From Clostridia bacterium (lineage in GTDB: Bacteria > Bacillota > Clostridia > Christensenellales > Borkfalkiaceae): a stretch of 64,000 nucleotides of DNA. The stretch spans positions 1 to 64,000 of the forward strand of contig JAFQAQ010000019.1 of NCBI GenBank assembly GCA_017399945.1. The letters run 5' to 3'. Each line of letters starts with the position of its first letter. Positions within the stretch are counted from its first letter, which is position 1. The position numbers and the translations under genes were made by a program. The notes below the pieces were generated by a model that saw nothing but the letters and a program-made list of their open reading frames with translations, searched no databases and was not told the origin of the DNA. Shown here one piece after another: positions 4,737 through 48,883 of this stretch.

Positions 4737-5561
4737 ATGACGGTATATATTGAATACGTATTAATAGATAACTTTATAATAGATTTTCTTATCCTGAAAG
4801 CCACCTTTACGGTAAGTGGGCAAACCACTTCTATAAAGAGGCTTTTTCTTTGTTCTATAATTTTATCAGTTTTTGCGTTACTATTTCCATACGTCGACGT
4901 GGGCGGAATAATTAGCACAAGCATAAAAGTTGCGTTTGGACTACTTACCATTATTCTCGCAGGTAAATACCAATCTTTTAGAGAGTATTATATAACCGTG
5001 CTTATATTTTTTACCTTTACCTTTTTAACGGGTGGAGGGGTAACGGCAATATATTCGTTATTAAACTTGCCCTTTGGAACAACTCCTACCATAGCCCTTG
5101 CAGTATTGCCAATATGGTTAATATTAAAACTTGGGAAAAGTCTAATATTTTATCTTTCAAGAAAGGGTAAAAACAAGGAATATATTTATCCCGTAGAAAT
5201 ATGCGTTGTTAAAAAGAAAGTTAGTTGCAAAGGGTTTTTAGATACAGGCAACGGTTTATACGATAACGGAACTCCTTGCGTGGTGTGTTCGGCAAAACTA
5301 ATAGGAAAACTGTTTACCCTTTCGCTACCCAAAATGAAAAAAATAAACGTGCAAACGATAAACGGAAATTCGCAAAAAATCGCAATACAATCGACCTATA
5401 TAAAGATATATATGGACGGGCAGTGGAATATATATAATAACGTAACGCTCGTGTTATCAAACGCAGGTTTTGACGACGGCTATCAAATAATATTACACCC
5501 GTCGTTATTTAAGGAGAATTATGTTAAAAGCAATAACGTGCAAACTGAAAAAGCTAGTTGA
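4737..5561 (+). CDS. spoIIGA: sigma-E processing peptidase SpoIIGA
   Basis: A membrane aspartic protease that cleaves the pro-sequence from pro-sigma-E in the mother cell after it is triggered from the forespore. The 274-residue protein has five N-terminal membrane segments (about residues 1-145) and a soluble C-terminal half with the catalytic LDTGN motif near residue 168. The last 41 bases overlap the start of sigE, so translation is likely coupled. It marks the organism as a spore former or a recent descendant of one. A TATAAT at 4709-4714 may be its -10 box; I found no clear Spo0A box. Confidence 0.92.
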
Positions 5562-6231
5562 AATTTTAGGGCTAAACCAAAACCTTTTAAGATACGTTGG
5601 CAGTAGTGAAGTATTGCCATCTCCCTTTACGCCCGAACAAGAAACCGAAATGATTGATCGGTTAAACAACGGCGAGGAGGGCATAAAAGATAAACTAATA
5701 GAACACAACTTGCGTTTGGTCGTTTACATAGCGCGTCGTTTTGAAAACACGGGAATAGATTTAGACGACTTGGTGTCGGTAGGTACCATAGGACTTATAA
5801 AAGCAGTAAACTCTTTTAACGCAGAAAAAAACATAAAACTAGCAACCTACGCTTCTCGTTGTATAGAAAACGAGATTTTAATGCATTTAAGAAAGACTGC
5901 GCGTATCAAAACCGAAGTTTCCTTTGACGAGCCGTTAAACACCGATTGGGAGGGCAACGAATTAGTGCTATCCGACGTTATGGGAACGGACGGAGACGTG
6001 GTGTATAAAAAGATAGAATCGGGCGTAGAAAACGAACTGTTAACCCAAGCCTTACTAAGACTTAACGGCAGAGAAAAACGCATTATGGAACTACGCTACG
6101 GGCTTAACGGCAAACAGGAAAAAACACAAAGAGAGGTCGCCGACATGCTCGGTATATCGCAAAGTTATATTTCTCGACTAGAAAAAAAGATTATTTTAAG
6201 GCTACAAAAAGAGTTTGCCAAAATGGTATAG
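5521..6231 (+). CDS. sigE: mother-cell sporulation sigma factor SigE
   Basis: RNA polymerase sigma factor for early mother-cell genes during sporulation. The 236-residue protein starts with a basic, amphipathic pro-sequence ([12 protein letters not shown]...) that SpoIIGA would remove. Region 2 follows ([22 protein letters not shown], with the CIENEI segment), then SFDEPLN, which is typical of SigE, and a region 4 helix-turn-helix ([14 protein letters not shown]). The start overlaps spoIIGA by 41 bases. In many Firmicutes sigG follows directly; here a terminator and a minus-strand ABC gene follow instead. Confidence 0.97.
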
Positions 6232-9479: not shown

Positions 9480-9502
9480 AAAAGAAGCCAACGGCTTCTT
9501 TT
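9480..9502 (-). terminator. terminator of the XRE gene
   Basis: AAAGAAGCC-AAC-GGCTTCTTT. On the minus strand the hairpin is followed by a T-run. It touches the stop codon of the regulator. Confidence 0.8.
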
Positions 9503-9800
9503 AAATTAAATTTTTACATAATTTTTTAACTGCGTTTTTATTCTTAACGCTAAGTTTTCTGTAATTAGAAAGCAACTCAAACTCGTCGGGGGAAAGAGCG
9601 CTTTCGCCTTCATCAAAAAATTGGGCAAGTGAAATATCCAAAGCGTCGCAAATATTTTTTAAGGTTGTAATAGAGGGTAACGTACCCCTTGAATACATGT
9701 TGGACAATGTTGATTGGGTAAGCCCAGCTTCTAAGGCTAATTTATATTGCGACCAGCCTTTTATTTTTAATAAATCGTCTATTTTCTTTAATATATCCAT
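9501..9800 (-). CDS. XRE-family helix-turn-helix regulator
   Basis: The 99-residue protein has an HTH_3 domain at about residues 8-62 (SQYKLALEAGLTQSTLSNMYSRG is the recognition region) and a short charged tail (LSVKNKNAVKKL) of a kind common in small Firmicute XRE repressors. The start has GGAGAG upstream. It is transcribed away from the MACPF lipoprotein gene, and the 139-base gap holds that gene's promoter and near-palindromic ACATATGT-type sites. It is the obvious candidate regulator of the MACPF gene and of itself. Confidence 0.88.
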   Translation of the reverse strand: MDILKKIDDLLKIKGWSQYKLALEAGLTQSTLSNMYSRGTLPSITTLKNICDALDISLAQFFDEGESALSPDEFELLSNYRKLSVKNKNAVKKLCKNLI

Positions 9801-9864
9801 TTATTTCTCTCCTTATCATATACACTCTACTATACATTTGAAAAACACATAAAACACAAAAGAG

Positions 9865-9893
9865 TTGACATTAATATACATATGTGTTATTAT
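9865..9893 (+). promoter_or_regulatory. strong promoter of the MACPF lipoprotein gene
   Basis: TTGACA (9865-9870), 17-base spacer, TATTAT (9888-9893). The spacer contains the palindrome ACATATGT (9878-9885). Related ATACA/TACAT words lie at about 9822-9838, toward the XRE start, and could be further regulator sites. Confidence 0.75.
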
Positions 9894-9939
9894 TTGAATA
9901 ATATTTTTACAAATGTAAAAGGATTAAGGAGAATTACTA

Positions 9940-11598
9940 ATGAAAACGTTTAAACGAATTATAGTTGCGTTGTTGGCATTAATAATGACCGTAACTTTTA
10001 CCGGTTGTACTTCGGATGAAGTTAACGACGTGGTTAACAACGTGTTTGAAAACTATCAAAATATGAACAACACTGAAACAGGTTCGTATTCAAAGTTTAA
10101 AAATATTAACGTTCAATCTTCATATTTGGGGTATGGTTACGACGTTATTAACGATCCTTATATGGATATGGACAACATAAATTTAAGTTATCCTATAATA
10201 GACATGCAAAAGATTGATAATGTAAACTTGCTTATGCAAAAGGTTAATAATGGTAGTCTTACCGAAAGTTACGGTTCTACTATGAGTGAACTTTATAGTG
10301 ATTACGCAACTTCTATTAACGTATACGGAAAAGTGGGAAAGTTTTTCTCAGGTGGTTTAAAAACCGATTTTATAGGAAGTACTAGTGAAAAATCATATTG
10401 GTATTTTTATAAACTCTCTTATAATTTTAATTCATTTTATATACACATAACCGATACGATTGAGCAAATAAAACAAGTGTTGTCCGAAGGTTTTAAAAAC
10501 GACGTGAAAACGATGGATATAGAAAAACTTTTCGATAGATACGGCACCCATTTAATAAAAGAAGCAGCCATGGGTGGTAGAATAGAAAAAAGCGTAACTT
10601 ACTCGTCCGAAAGCAATACGAACAAAGAGTCTATGACCGCTGCGGTAAACACGCATATAAAAGCATTTGGCGCTTCAATCAACGCCGAAGCTTCCACGTC
10701 GGCTAATAACGCACTATCAGCAGAAAGCATAGAATCTAAAACAAAAATAACGCAACTTGGTGGTAAGGCAATTAGTTTAAGCGGGGATATGAACTACGAT
10801 AAGTGGGCGTCCTCGTTTGACGAAAGTTTGGATTATTCTGCTTTATGTGGAATAGTAGGCAACAATTCGTTAATCGGTTTGTGGGAACTTTTGCCCGAAG
10901 GGTACGAAGAAAGAGCAGAGCAAATAAAACAAAAGTTTATACAGTTAAGTGGCGATAGTTATAACGAACTTTGCGATATGTTTAAGCTAAAAGACATAGG
11001 TTCGGGTTCAGTTGATACAACTTGGAACACGATTAAAGTCACTATGCCCAAAATTAATACTCACGATAACAATAGATACAGTCCTAGCAAAGAAAACACT
11101 GAAGAAAAATGGATAGCCCGTCATAGTGGGTGGGAACTTGGTGAACTTTGTCTTTACGGTATGCAAGCTAAGGAAAATGGCGAAGGATACGTAATAAAAA
11201 ACAAACAAGACTTAGCGCTAAAATACAACGTTTTACATAATATTAACGATCTTCCGTTAGGAGACGGTATTGCTGAATCTCAAAAAATCTCGTCGGATTC
11301 TAGCACGGGCGTTGCAAATACGACTATAACGGAAACAGTAGGAAAGGGTGCTTATTGGGTTAGAATTACCTATACGGACGATAGTCAAACCATAGTAAAA
11401 AAAGTTGATTGTCTAAATGGCTCTACTCAAGGAAGTTACGTTGATTTGCTTGGTAATGACAGTATAGACCAGTCAAAAACCATAAAACAAATCGACGTGG
11501 TATTCGTGTATGAGTTATACGCTGGTGCGCCGGGTGTTCTAGGGATCTGGTGGGCAGATTATAGCAATTGGCGTTGTGAATATACTATAAAATTTTAA
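9940..11598 (+). CDS. MACPF (perforin-fold) domain lipoprotein
   Basis: The 552-residue protein starts with a lipoprotein signal: a basic N-terminus, a hydrophobic stretch, and TFTGC with C23 as the lipidated residue. The mid-region (about 60-345) carries the MACPF hallmark Y201-G-T-H-L-I followed by G212-G213, with the Ser/Thr/Asn-rich, alanine-rich helix-forming segments flanking it that become membrane hairpins in pore formers. Residues about 385-552 look like a separate beta-rich domain rich in Trp and Gly. MACPF proteins of known function form pores (perforin, complement C9) or act in adhesion. Bacterial ones are known in Bacteroidetes toxins and Chlamydia. A lipid-anchored form in a spore-forming Firmicute, beside a dedicated XRE gene, is unusual. 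Target and activity are unknown. Confidence 0.8.
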   Translation: MKTFKRIIVALLALIMTVTFTGCTSDEVNDVVNNVFENYQNMNNTETGSYSKFKNINVQSSYLGYGYDVINDPYMDMDNINLSYPIIDMQKIDNVNLLMQKVNNGSLTESYGSTMSELYSDYATSINVYGKVGKFFSGGLKTDFIGSTSEKSYWYFYKLSYNFNSFYIHITDTIEQIKQVLSEGFKNDVKTMDIEKLFDRYGTHLIKEAAMGGRIEKSVTYSSESNTNKESMTAAVNTHIKAFGASINAEASTSANNALSAESIESKTKITQLGGKAISLSGDMNYDKWASSFDESLDYSALCGIVGNNSLIGLWELLPEGYEERAEQIKQKFIQLSGDSYNELCDMFKLKDIGSGSVDTTWNTIKVTMPKINTHDNNRYSPSKENTEEKWIARHSGWELGELCLYGMQAKENGEGYVIKNKQDLALKYNVLHNINDLPLGDGIAESQKISSDSSTGVANTTITETVGKGAYWVRITYTDDSQTIVKKVDCLNGSTQGSYVDLLGNDSIDQSKTIKQIDVVFVYELYAGAPGVLGIWWADYSNWRCEYTIKF

Positions 11599-11602
11599 TA
11601 AT

Positions 11603-11640
11603 AAAAAGCGCACGACAATGCGCGTTTCCCTTAGGGATTT
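11603..11640 (+). repeat. left inverted repeat of the acetyltransferase cassette
   Basis: It starts AAAAAGCGCACG and ends GCGTTTCCCTTAGGGATTT. Both segments occur exactly, in reverse complement, at 12755-12795; the middle few bases differ. The outer part also forms a small hairpin, GCGCA/TGCGC, that could help end the MACPF transcript. Confidence 0.7.
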
Positions 11641-11652
11641 TTTAGGAACTAT

Positions 11653-11684
11653 AAAAGGATAGCAAAAAATTTTGCTATCCTTTT
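11653..11684. terminator. strong hairpin terminator after the MACPF gene
   Basis: AAAAGGATAGCAAAA pairs with TTTTGCTATCCTTTT around an AA turn, followed by CTTTTTG on the plus strand. Confidence 0.85.
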
Positions 11685-11793
11685 CTTTTTGCTTCGCAAA
11701 ACACACGACTTTCTTTTGAAAGTATAGTGTGCTACACTTTTGAAAATTTTTCCACAAAGAATATCAAATCGATAAATTGGAATTTGAAAACAA

Positions 11794-12835: not shown

Positions 12836-12910
12836 GGTCCGCCCACGGGGACTCGAACCCAGGACCCACTGATTAAGAGTCAGTTGCTCTACCAACTGAG
12901 CTATGGGCGG
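12835..12910 (-). tRNA. tRNA-Lys(CTT)
   Basis: 76 nt, CCA encoded. Acceptor CCGCCCA / TGGGCGG, anticodon loop CTCTTAA. Last gene of the minus-strand tRNA cluster. Confidence 0.95.
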
Positions 12911-12914
12911 AAAA

Positions 12915-12939
12915 AACTTTCCTTGTAAAAAGGAAAGTT
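12915..12939 (-). terminator. intrinsic terminator inside the tRNA cluster
   Basis: AACTTTCC / GGAAAGTT stem followed on the minus strand by six T, placed between tRNA-Lys(TTT) and tRNA-Lys(CTT). The T run ends only four to five bases before tRNA-Lys(CTT), so it should limit expression of that last tRNA. Confidence 0.7.
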
Positions 12940-13014
12940 GGTGGCTCATCGGGGAATCGAACCCCGGACACCATGATTAAAAGTCATGTGCTCTACCGTC
13001 TGAGCTAATGAACC
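12939..13014 (-). tRNA. tRNA-Lys(TTT)
   Basis: 76 nt with encoded CCA. Anticodon stem CATGA / TCATG, loop CTTTTAA. Confidence 0.95.
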
Positions 13015-13018
13015 AAAT

Positions 13019-13093
13019 TGGCAGGGGTGGCAGGATTTGAACCTACGAATGACGGAATCAAAATCCGTTGCCTTACCGCTTGGCGACACCCCT
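13019..13093 (-). tRNA. tRNA-Gln(TTG)
   Basis: 75 nt with encoded CCA. Acceptor AGGGGTG / CACCCCT, anticodon loop TTTTGAT. Its body closely resembles tRNA-Gln(CTG) at 36522. Confidence 0.95.
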
Positions 13094-13112
13094 ATTTATA
13101 TTAAATTGATTG

Positions 13113-13190
13113 TGGGGCGGGTGATGGGAATCGAACCCACGACCTCAAGGACCACAATCTTGCGCTCTAACCAACTGAGCTACACCCGCC
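13113..13190 (-). tRNA. tRNA-His(GTG)
   Basis: 78 nt including the extra 5' G (position -1) facing discriminator C, as expected for tRNA-His. Anticodon loop TTGTGGT; CCA encoded. Confidence 0.95.
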
Positions 13191-13192
13191 AT

Positions 13193-13269
13193 TGGCGCGC
13201 CTGAAGGGATTCGAACCCCTGACCCTCGGCTTAGAAGGCCGATGCTCTATCCAACTGAGCTACAGACAC
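13193..13269 (-). tRNA. tRNA-Arg(TCT)
   Basis: 77 nt with encoded CCA. Anticodon stem TCGGC / GCCGA, loop CTTCTAA. The acceptor GTGTCTG pairs with CAGGCGC through two G-T pairs. Confidence 0.93.
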
Positions 13270-13294
13270 ATATTTGCCTATTGCCTAAATGCAT

Positions 13295-13368
<74 letters not shown>

Positions 13369-16623: not shown

Positions 16624-16830
16624 TTAATAATCATTTCTACCTAAAAGATAATCAACGGAAACGTCGAGCACGTCTGCAATAGCAACCAGCGTTTTAAGCG
16701 TAGGTTGGCTAGTACCTTTTTCGTATCTAGTATACGAAGGCTGTGTAATCCCAAGTTTATCAGCAAAAACCCTTTGAGTTAACCCCAAAGCCTTGCGTTC
16801 TTGCTTTAACCTTTCTTGAAAAATCTTCAT
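16624..16830 (-). CDS. small XRE-family repressor
   Basis: The 68-residue protein is essentially one HTH_3 domain (LGLTQRVFADKLGITQPSYTRYEKGTSQPT), ending in VDYLLGRNDY, a tail common in Cro/CI-like proteins of Firmicutes. It is divergent from the membrane protein at 16923. The shared 92-base gap holds a consensus promoter overlapped by a long dyad of AGTTTGCTAT words, almost surely its operator. Confidence 0.9.
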   Translation of the reverse strand: MKIFQERLKQERKALGLTQRVFADKLGITQPSYTRYEKGTSQPTLKTLVAIADVLDVSVDYLLGRNDY

Positions 16831-16848
16831 TTTAAATCCCCTATCTTG

Positions 16849-16899
16849 TTGACAATTATAACAGTTTGCTATATAATTATTTCAAAATATAGCAAACTG
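16849..16899 (+). promoter_or_regulatory. consensus promoter overlapped by a 13-bp-arm operator
   Basis: TTGACA (16849-16854), 17-base spacer, TATAAT (16872-16877). Inverted arms CAGTTTGCTATAT (16862-16874) and ATATAGCAAACTG (16887-16899) span the -10 box and the start point. The right arm also belongs to the smaller palindrome ATAGCA-AAC-TGCTAT. Confidence 0.8.
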
Positions 16900-16922
16900 C
16901 TATCAAAAAAAAGGAAAAACAA

Positions 16923-17483
16923 ATGAGAAAAGAAGCGAAAATTGTTAAAACGAGTCCAGAATTTGAACAAACTTCCATTGAAAATTGGGAAGCGTTCGGC
17001 TGGGAACTACTAAGCACGCAAGAAATTCTTGCAAAAGAAAGTCATTTAGAAGACGCAGGTGGCGGAGCAGTGGATAGTGTAATCACTACTACTAACTACG
17101 TTAAGCTTGCCTTTAATCGTGACGTAAACATTAAAAACAAACAAGAACTAGACGAGTTACAAGAAGAATACAGTAAACTAAAATTCAATCCTACAAAACC
17201 TTCGTCTGGTATAGGAACGTTTTTTATGTTGTTGGTTTTTGCAATAGTTGCGGTTATGGTTATGATTAGTCTAGATGTATCAATGAGCGTATGCATTATT
17301 GTTGTAATGTCCGTGCTTTTGATTGGTCTTTTTGTTGTTCAAAACACACAAAATTCTAGGAATAAAATTGCAAGAGAGGAGAATAAGGAAAAAATGCAAG
17401 TGTTGATGGCAAAACGTAAAGTAATAGTTGACAAAGCACGTGCAATACTTGATAAAAACGAGCAGGAAGAAAAACAAAACTAA
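16923..17483 (+). CDS. two-helix membrane protein with a DUF4177-like N-terminus
   Basis: The 186-residue protein has a soluble N-terminal part whose NWEAFGWELLSTQEI stretch resembles the small DUF4177 fold. Two adjacent membrane helices follow (about residues 100-120 and 125-142), then a basic, coiled-coil-like cytoplasmic tail rich in Lys and Glu. I do not recognise a function. The tight XRE control with a consensus promoter suggests a switched gene, as in small phage-derived or stress modules. Confidence 0.65.
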   Translation: MRKEAKIVKTSPEFEQTSIENWEAFGWELLSTQEILAKESHLEDAGGGAVDSVITTTNYVKLAFNRDVNIKNKQELDELQEEYSKLKFNPTKPSSGIGTFFMLLVFAIVAVMVMISLDVSMSVCIIVVMSVLLIGLFVVQNTQNSRNKIAREENKEKMQVLMAKRKVIVDKARAILDKNEQEEKQN

Positions 17484-22591: not shown

Positions 22592-22840
22592 ATTACGTAT
22601 AAAAAAACCCTAAGCAAAAATTTTGCTTAGGGCGAACTGACTAGTCCGTGTTACCACCTAAATTCGGATATAACTATCCGCTCTCAATCGGCAAACTGCC
22701 GTTTCTCTATTACGGGAGAAACCCGTTGACGCTTAGTTGAACTAAAAAGTCCGTTAGGCGCACTGCTCCAAGACGGGTTCGGGAATTACGTTTAAGGACT
22801 TACACCAACCGTCCTCTCTCTAAAAAACAATAACGACCTA
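22592..22840 (-). promoter_or_regulatory. T-box riboswitch (tRNA-Pro) controlling proS
   Basis: Read on the minus strand: a stem I start with AGAGAG and GGTTGGTG, a specifier-loop segment GAA-CCC-G whose CCC (22775-22777) is a proline codon, and GGAGC. The antiterminator T-box sequence GGTGGTAACACGG lies near 22648-22660. A terminator CCCTAAGC...GCTTAGGG with seven T ends just before the proS ribosome site. Uncharged tRNA-Pro would stabilise the antiterminator and turn proS on. Confidence 0.93.
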
Positions 22841-22877
22841 CTATTTCTTTTCATCGCTTTATATTCAATTTTAATTA

Positions 22878-48062: not shown

Positions 48063-48883
48063 TAATATTCTCCTTTTTCGTTTAAATGTTTAATCATATT
48101 TAGTGGATCGTTAGTGTTTACTATTCTACTTCCGTATGAAAACGCCAAATCGTAAAGCGGATATTCTTTCAAACTTGGTGCCATAAGTGGCATTATATCT
48201 TTTGATAGTAAATAATCAAACCACTCTTTGGGGCACATATTATCTGCACATTTTTGAACAGTTCCATCTGCTAATTGAACTCTGTGTTGCATACAAGCAA
48301 CCGAAATAAAACTTTCTGGTTCTATTTGCATATACCCCAAAATAAACCAAGGGTAAAAGCCGTGATAATAAAAAGTATCCCCGTATTTTTTATAAACGTA
48401 TTCTAAAAGTTTACCGCTAAACGAGTTAATAAGCGTTCTTTCGGCAAGATTATTTTCAATAATCATATCGCATACTATATCGGCACATAAACAGGCAATT
48501 TGCTCGTCTTCTTCGGGATAATCTTTTAATTCAATATTTAAGTAAATTTTTTTATGCTTTTTTACAAGCTGAATAAATTCCAAAAGAGTTGGTGGTGGTT
48601 CTGGTGCGATTTTGATTTTTGCACCTACCGTTGCGTCTAGTTTTTTTATTTCTTTTAGGGTTAAATCAATAATTTTGCCTTTTCCGTTAGTGGTTCTGTC
48701 TACGGTGTTGTCGTGCATTAAGATAGGGTATCCGTCTTTGGTCAAATGCACGTCGGTTTCAAGCATATCAACCCCATCTTCAATTGCTAAACGAAAGGCC
48801 GTAAGAGTATTTTCTATACCGTAACACCCTTGTCCACGATGTCCACACACTAACACTTTATCGTCGCTTGGAAACTTTTTCAT
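48062..48883 (-). CDS. glycerophosphodiester phosphodiesterase-like enzyme
   Basis: The 273-residue GDPD protein has H15-R16-G, E24-N-T, E42-x-D44 and MHD with H57, so the catalytic set is complete. No signal peptide. It lies within the galactonate operon, between the PHP and dgoD genes, and overlaps dgoD by one base. That position suggests a substrate linked to galactonate or a sugar-acid phosphodiester rather than lipid turnover. This is inference from context only. Confidence 0.88.

Follow-up and report, generated by a model that had tools for sequence, protein, structure and literature searches.

What would a lipid-anchored protein of the MACPF family do for a bacterium of the class Clostridia, and why does its gene stand back to back with that of a small XRE-type regulator? 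The question is raised by a locus in a stretch of 64,000 nucleotides (positions 1 to 64,000 of contig JAFQAQ010000019.1, assembly GCA_017399945.1, Borkfalkiaceae), here called the window. The encoded lipoprotein has the sequence and the predicted fold of a MACPF protein, a lipobox, and a C-terminal module shared with other proteins. XRE genes are paired with MACPF genes far above background; most of the paired loci have strong promoters, and about half have strong palindromes. Taken together, the parts suggest a pore-former that is anchored, under control and directed to a receptor, and that may work much as the BSAP toxins do while standing outside the BSAP family. We give about an even chance to the proposal that the two genes of the locus form a weapon module, controlled by a repressor and directed against other cells. 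Its features are as follows.

9501–9800, reverse strand: XRE/Cro-type helix-turn-helix (HTH) regulator of 99 residues, divergent partner of the MACPF gene
9801–9939, no strand: divergent control region between the two start codons
9831–9844, no strand: candidate operator-like dyad TATACA-TT-TGAAAA, one mismatch to TWTACANNTGTAWA by the tool's count
9865–9893, forward strand: sigma-A-type promoter TTGACA-17-TATTAT, 11/12, with extended −10 (consensus match only)
9875–9888, no strand: weaker candidate dyad TATACA-TA-TGTGTT between −35 and −10, two mismatches, not selected by the repeated-dyad test
9906–9919, no strand: perfect dyad TTTACA-AA-TGTAAA downstream of the promoter, candidate operator
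9940–11598, forward strand: MACPF lipoprotein gene, 552 residues
9940–10008, forward strand: lipoprotein signal peptide, including lipobox cysteine C23
10117–10989, forward strand: MACPF core, about residues 60–350
11020–11595, forward strand: C-terminal domain, residues 361–552, a recurring module
11653–11684, forward strand: intrinsic-terminator-like hairpin 3′ of the MACPF gene (consensus match only)

The original prediction of a MACPF lipoprotein, drawn from a lipobox at C23 and a YGTH...GG signature, is borne out by both profile and structure searches. The protein matches the Pfam MACPF family (PF01823) significantly, with 38.4 bits against a cut-off of 21.5, over residues 151–294. The signature is present (Y201–H204 and G212–G213), and Y201, G202, H204, G212, G274 and G275 are invariant in the 19 rows of our alignment. 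The top sequence matches in the PDB, extending over ∼200 residues, are GNIP1Aa (E = 2.8e-9) and then Mpf2Ba1 (E = 3.1e-9). An AlphaFold model built on the 19-row alignment (single-sequence input gave a predicted local distance difference test score, pLDDT, of only 31) has a MACPF fold in the core, and MACPF proteins are its best fold matches, GNIP1Aa and Mpf2Ba1 again among them; Bt_3439 (3KK7) is another match. Two segments of about 40 residues each (113–152 and 224–263) sit between core strands of the model, at what we take to be the positions of the two membrane-inserting segments of MACPF proteins; residues 127–151 have a pLDDT below 50. Both segments hold windows at the 98th–99th percentile of beta-moment within the protein, with higher values elsewhere, for example in the last 12 residues. 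A loose rule detects a lipobox in 39 of the 47 family members surveyed, and a fortieth (L054) shows one by eye. Among the Pfam matches with E up to 1 there is no thiol-activated cytolysin (PF01289). In NCBIfam, only the BSAP5a pore-forming toxin family is matched with E of at most 1 (26.1 bits, cut-off 500); judged by this profile, the protein is a distant relative of that family and not a member. PADLOC left it unmatched at E up to 1.

The regulator matches HTH_3 with 41.9 bits (cut-off 23), and PADLOC gives only weak HTH matches for it. That it might be a dedicated switch, as also suggested in the original prediction, is supported by a survey of XRE genes at 47 distinct MACPF loci: the window, 34 others, and 12 of 18 loci from named relatives (six duplicates were dropped). 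A locus was considered paired if it had a divergent XRE gene encoding no more than 150 residues, with its start at most 150 bp inside the MACPF gene and at most 300 bp upstream of the start of that gene. For both targets and controls, XRE genes were recognized by a profile that began with the regulator of the window and was iterated over these loci. Such a gene lies at the MACPF start in 21 of the 47 loci. In three further loci, L051, L062 and L065, MACPF is the last gene of a same-strand row, and it is the head of this row that has the divergent XRE gene. Control genes of the same loci, which are non-overlapping open reading frames (ORFs) and may thus include some false genes, have an XRE partner in 8/433 cases, or 5/430 without the three MACPF-operon heads. 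A Fisher test of 21 versus 22 against 5 versus 425, setting aside L043, L049, L053 and L084, gives p of about 3e-20 (2e-17 without three near-duplicate paired loci). The pairing does not seem to be a general mark of lipoproteins: of 38 lipoprotein-like control genes, 3 stand opposite a divergent XRE gene, and two of these are, by eye, the MACPF-operon heads of L051 and L065.

Paired loci also share promoter features. Promoters were scanned as TTGACA-N16–18-TATAAT in the 130 bp before the MACPF start, with starts chosen by rule (L043 and L053 were too short). A score of at least 11/12 is reached at 18 of 21 paired loci, at 45 of 206 other genes with intergenic upstream DNA, and at 3 of 24 unpaired MACPF genes, some of which lie inside operons and score lower for that reason. 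Palindromes with z of at least 2, relative to 60 dinucleotide shuffles, occur at 10/21 paired and 0/24 unpaired loci, and palindrome strength differs between the groups (Mann-Whitney p = 0.0004; 0.001 without near-duplicates). The strong palindrome overlaps the best promoter in nine of these ten paired loci; palindrome-promoter overlap alone fails to separate the groups (13/21 paired, 11/24 unpaired). The palindromes vary in sequence from locus to locus. L060 has three copies of TTAGGGA-N3-TCCCTAA, one exactly filling the −35/−10 spacer, and L071 has TCTAGGAATCCTAGA between −35 and −10. A palindrome with 17-bp arms surrounds the −35 element in L054, and ACAGCA-AAC-TGCTGT follows the −10 element in L066.

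The regulators themselves are not conserved along with their partners. The MACPF proteins of the window and L066 share 64% identity over 554 residues, while their XRE proteins share 26% over 53 residues and differ in length (99 and 68 residues). Among the 21 paired loci, the XRE protein closest to that of the window is from L061 (44% over 98 residues), where the MACPF protein is only about 28% identical. Similar XRE proteins (89–94%) are found in the near-duplicate loci L041/L075, L006/L059 and L072/L074. The layout thus persists, and over longer distances the regulator is replaced or altered past recognition. Elsewhere in the window, a small XRE gene (16624–16830, reverse strand) is divergent from a 186-residue ORF (16923–17483, forward strand), the pair spanning 16624–17483. 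On contig C1 of the same genome, near position 48555 (L092), a 146-residue lipoprotein-like ORF is divergent from an XRE gene, possibly a further switch-controlled surface protein.

A separate C-terminal domain was also part of the original prediction, and this domain does recur, on proteins that otherwise differ. Residues 361–552 are 55% identical to the equivalent region of L066, 36% to L045, and 32% each to L063 and L067. Pfam offers no family above its cut-off for the domain, and the PDB no match with E of 5 or less; an assignment as a Rib domain was discarded, its matches being far below cut-off. It is present in 7 of 297 genomes of the order, where it is borne by MACPF proteins in the window and L045. 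It also forms the end of three proteins that have a beta-like, Ser/Thr-rich region (L130, L132 and L134), of a long repeat protein (L133), and of a lipoprotein in which InlB-like repeats are visible by eye (L131). L130 and L132 have a lipobox by eye, and L134 has a different hydrophobic N-terminus. The N-terminal parts of L130, L132 and L134 have no Pfam or NCBIfam match near cut-off. One of the three, used alone, matches the hemolytic lectin 1w3a (E = 0.16), and a profile of all three matches four PDB chains, all of them named toxins (best E = 0.0057, over 64 residues). These matches may reflect composition, because the stretch is Ser/Thr-rich, and they are only suggestive of an aerolysin-like nature. 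L134 (75–1775), which has no recognized MACPF domain and is possibly an aerolysin-like pore-former, has a divergent XRE gene, and the palindrome CATCTTAC-TATT-GTAAGATG occupies the spacer between its TTGACA and TATAAT. No XRE gene adjoins L130 to L133. As the module moves between differing N-terminal parts, it is best read as a putative recognition domain; its occurrence on other surface proteins suggests external targets. This reading follows the analogy of BSAP-1, whose C-terminal domain is reported to be both required and enough for binding the receptor (PMC12853789).

On the proposal of a weapon module, the XRE protein would bind the dyads in the shared control region and shut off the strong sigma-A promoter. 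Some signal would lift the repression, and the lipoprotein would be made and anchored on the outer face of the membrane, from which it is perhaps shed. The C-terminal domain would then bind a receptor on a target cell, which would be another cell and not the producer, and the MACPF core would form a ring, insert its beta-hairpins and open a pore. The order of parts agrees with this scheme: anchor, MACPF and C-terminal domain form the architecture of BSAP toxins (PMC12853789). In the open-licence literature, searched by titles and the beginnings of abstracts, the matches listed included nothing on MACPF lipoproteins of Firmicutes or Clostridia, or on a link between XRE and MACPF.

The family is sporadically distributed, which also speaks for the weapon proposal. 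MACPF matches are found in 2 of 44 genomes of the genus (G000–G043; only G000 and G037), 3/101 of a sample of relatives, 16/301 of the family, 16/396 of the order and 3/391 of the class, with the genome of the window counted in each of the last four. This genome (1.59 Mb in 29 contigs, 93% complete) carries a second MACPF gene on contig C2 (L005, 4915–10143, reverse strand), which encodes a 1742-residue lipoprotein with Listeria-Bacteroides (InlB-type) repeats, a GLUG motif, an FN3-like N-terminus by eye and a Big_2 match just under cut-off; no XRE gene adjoins it. The genome of the window gave no Omp85 match, whereas the same search was positive for 7 of 14 control genomes; a single membrane is therefore probable for the host. 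The named relatives extend to Christensenella sp. UBA1782, Alkalibaculum sporogenes, [Clostridium] polysaccharolyticum, two metagenome-assembled genomes (MAGs) of Fibrimonadales, Pedobacter and Belliella. No relative of the MACPF protein was detected in two scans of viral contigs, in tblastn searches of phage and plasmid collections, or in a single-protein scan of a collection of genome contigs; at the sensitivity of these searches, the idea that known phages or plasmids carry it was abandoned. In a near relative (G008, contig C35, L118), the match to the window has its boundary at 11769 and only 673 bp of contig follow beyond it, so the cassette is likely, though not proven, to be absent there. 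The GNAT-like protein of L118 is 98% identical, with one TAA counted within it, and a search of G008 for the ABC gene of the other flank gave short ATPase-like matches only. Just past the GNAT-like gene adjoining the MACPF locus, six tRNA genes occupy 12838–13368 (reverse strand) of the window; a T-box leader (116.7 bits) lies at 22625–22863 (reverse strand).

Genes near MACPF were clustered for 44 loci (302 genes within 4 kb, leaving out the near-duplicates L059, L074 and L075). Five clusters include at least three loci: two of XRE proteins, one ABC-type, one AraC-like by eye, and one of C11 (clostripain) proteases. The C11 gene lies directly 3′ of the MACPF gene, on the same strand, in L039 (5881–9856), L040 (6401–9866) and L058 (222–4113) (131 bits or more, cut-off 25.8), and the MACPF genes of these loci are without XRE pairing. 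By eye, L039 and L040 are almost the same, although the two genomes fall in different families, and the frame of L040 is missing its N-terminal part. Such proteases reportedly activate antibacterial toxins in Bacteroidales, where CDCL activity is reported to depend on C11-type enzymes and Fab1 to be activated by fragipain (PMC12853789, PMC8406203); the C11 neighbors count in favor of the weapon proposal.

Several observations weigh against a repressor-controlled weapon. Its weakest point is geometry, namely how an anchored protein passes the cell wall of a single-membrane bacterium: 552 residues on a linker of ∼40 residues might not do so without release, and there is no C11 match in the genome of the window. 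No immunity gene was recognized, the neighbor clusters of at least three loci being, beyond XRE, only the ABC-type, AraC-like and C11 ones. There is no XRE gene at the MACPF start or operon head in 23 of the 47 loci, among them the second MACPF gene of the same genome; three of the misses (L043, L049 and L053) have less than 300 bp of upstream DNA. This genome has 29 HTH_3 matches, and several of its small XRE genes are divergent from other genes too. The divergent layout is thus common in the genome, and the unusual part is how strongly it is concentrated on MACPF genes. Of the strong promoter with palindromic words named in the original prediction, the sigma-A match stands, but the palindromes of the window hardly exceed chance (best single p = 0.41; repeated dyads p = 0.03). 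The operator pattern is not in excess across the window (23 found, 26 expected) and was derived from the region on which it was tested; the claim of regulation therefore rests on the multi-locus comparison. Finally, relatives have an adhesive look, with InlB-type repeats in 4 of 10 scanned (L005, L006, L067 and L071) and GLUG motifs in two (L005 and L051), and the C-terminal domain of L131 and L133 is joined to repeats with no recognized pore domain.

These last points make a surface adhesin the strongest rival, because relatives bear repeats. The MACPF core would then be a binding or assembly fold that attaches the cell to a host, particle or neighbor, with XRE controlling its display. We consider this unlikely: both putative hairpin segments are kept at about 40 residues with high beta-moment windows, the six invariant residues persist in all alignment rows, and a near-consensus promoter beside a repressor-type gene would better suit an episodic product. 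Next comes a weapon aimed not at bacteria but at gut eukaryotes, such as ciliates, other protists or animal cells. The best solved match, GNIP1Aa, is entered in the PDB as a “Gram-negative insecticidal protein”, followed by Mpf2Ba1, and some of the 18 named relatives are MAGs from the guts of sheep, goat, roe deer, water deer and reindeer. Sequence cannot separate this version from the antibacterial one, and we rate it as improbable. A role against other cells, offered in the original prediction as an anti-competitor or anti-protist weapon, is the best reading of the evidence, and one that we infer.

The two other options of that prediction find little support. In a self-acting pore, phage attack or stress would lift XRE repression and MACPF would permeabilize the producer. 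The XRE protein does resemble phage repressors, and the anchor would set the core beside the producer's own membrane; but the searches of PADLOC, viral contigs and phage and plasmid collections were all negative for the MACPF protein, there is no recurrent sensor gene among the neighbors, and the external targets suggested by the C-terminal domain point elsewhere, so that this role is quite improbable. Least probable, and by our estimate very much so, is a spore or envelope factor expressed in development. Two overlapping ORFs at 4737–6231 of the window are, by eye, SpoIIGA-like and sporulation sigma-factor-like, a hint that the host may form spores, as the original prediction assumed. Against such a role stand the sigma-A-type promoter and the sporadic occurrence of MACPF in the genus and family.

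A controlled weapon module at this locus could be one example of a wider set. With less confidence than for the locus itself, and as a tentative proposal that may well be wrong, we suggest that gut Clostridia carry an undescribed modular arsenal of pore-formers with a lipid anchor, whose pore core, C-terminal recognition domain and XRE-operator switch are each exchanged on their own. The pore cores would be MACPF and, perhaps, an aerolysin-like domain of L130, L132 and L134. If true, single-membrane bacteria would have a counterpart to the BSAP system, turned on and off by one component, and the MACPF family of Clostridia would extend perforin-type antagonism to bacteria apparently without an outer membrane. 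The XRE gene, dyads and promoter offer a testable handle on the timing of production, and the question of how an anchored pore-former passes a wall becomes concrete.

Among known systems, the BSAP toxins (e.g. BSAP-1) are similar in combining a lipoprotein anchor (here at C23), MACPF and a C-terminal domain. However, their hosts are Bacteroidota with an outer membrane, whereas the host of the window belongs to the class Clostridia and lacks an Omp85 match. The described C-terminal Pfam models of BSAPs (PF18885, PF20779 and PF20785, which cover the Pfam-modelled groups only) are absent at E up to 1, and the BSAP5a score is far from its cut-off. We do not regard the protein as a BSAP, because the tests of curated model, host envelope and C-terminal Pfam domain all fail. 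The locus also differs in its divergent XRE gene, and no immunity or receptor gene was recognized beside MACPF. GNIP1Aa and Mpf2Ba1 are the best sequence matches and among the best fold matches of the core, and these matches span essentially the MACPF part of the protein only. CDC and CDCL proteins are more distant, as the protein has no thiol-cytolysin match in Pfam and a weaker structural match to them than to MACPF proteins. The regulatory half resembles XRE/Cro-CI repressors that lie beside their targets, with a small HTH_3 protein, a divergent gene, and candidate dyads on or near the target promoter. It differs from them in that XRE proteins of low mutual identity are here paired with one family of MACPF lipoproteins.
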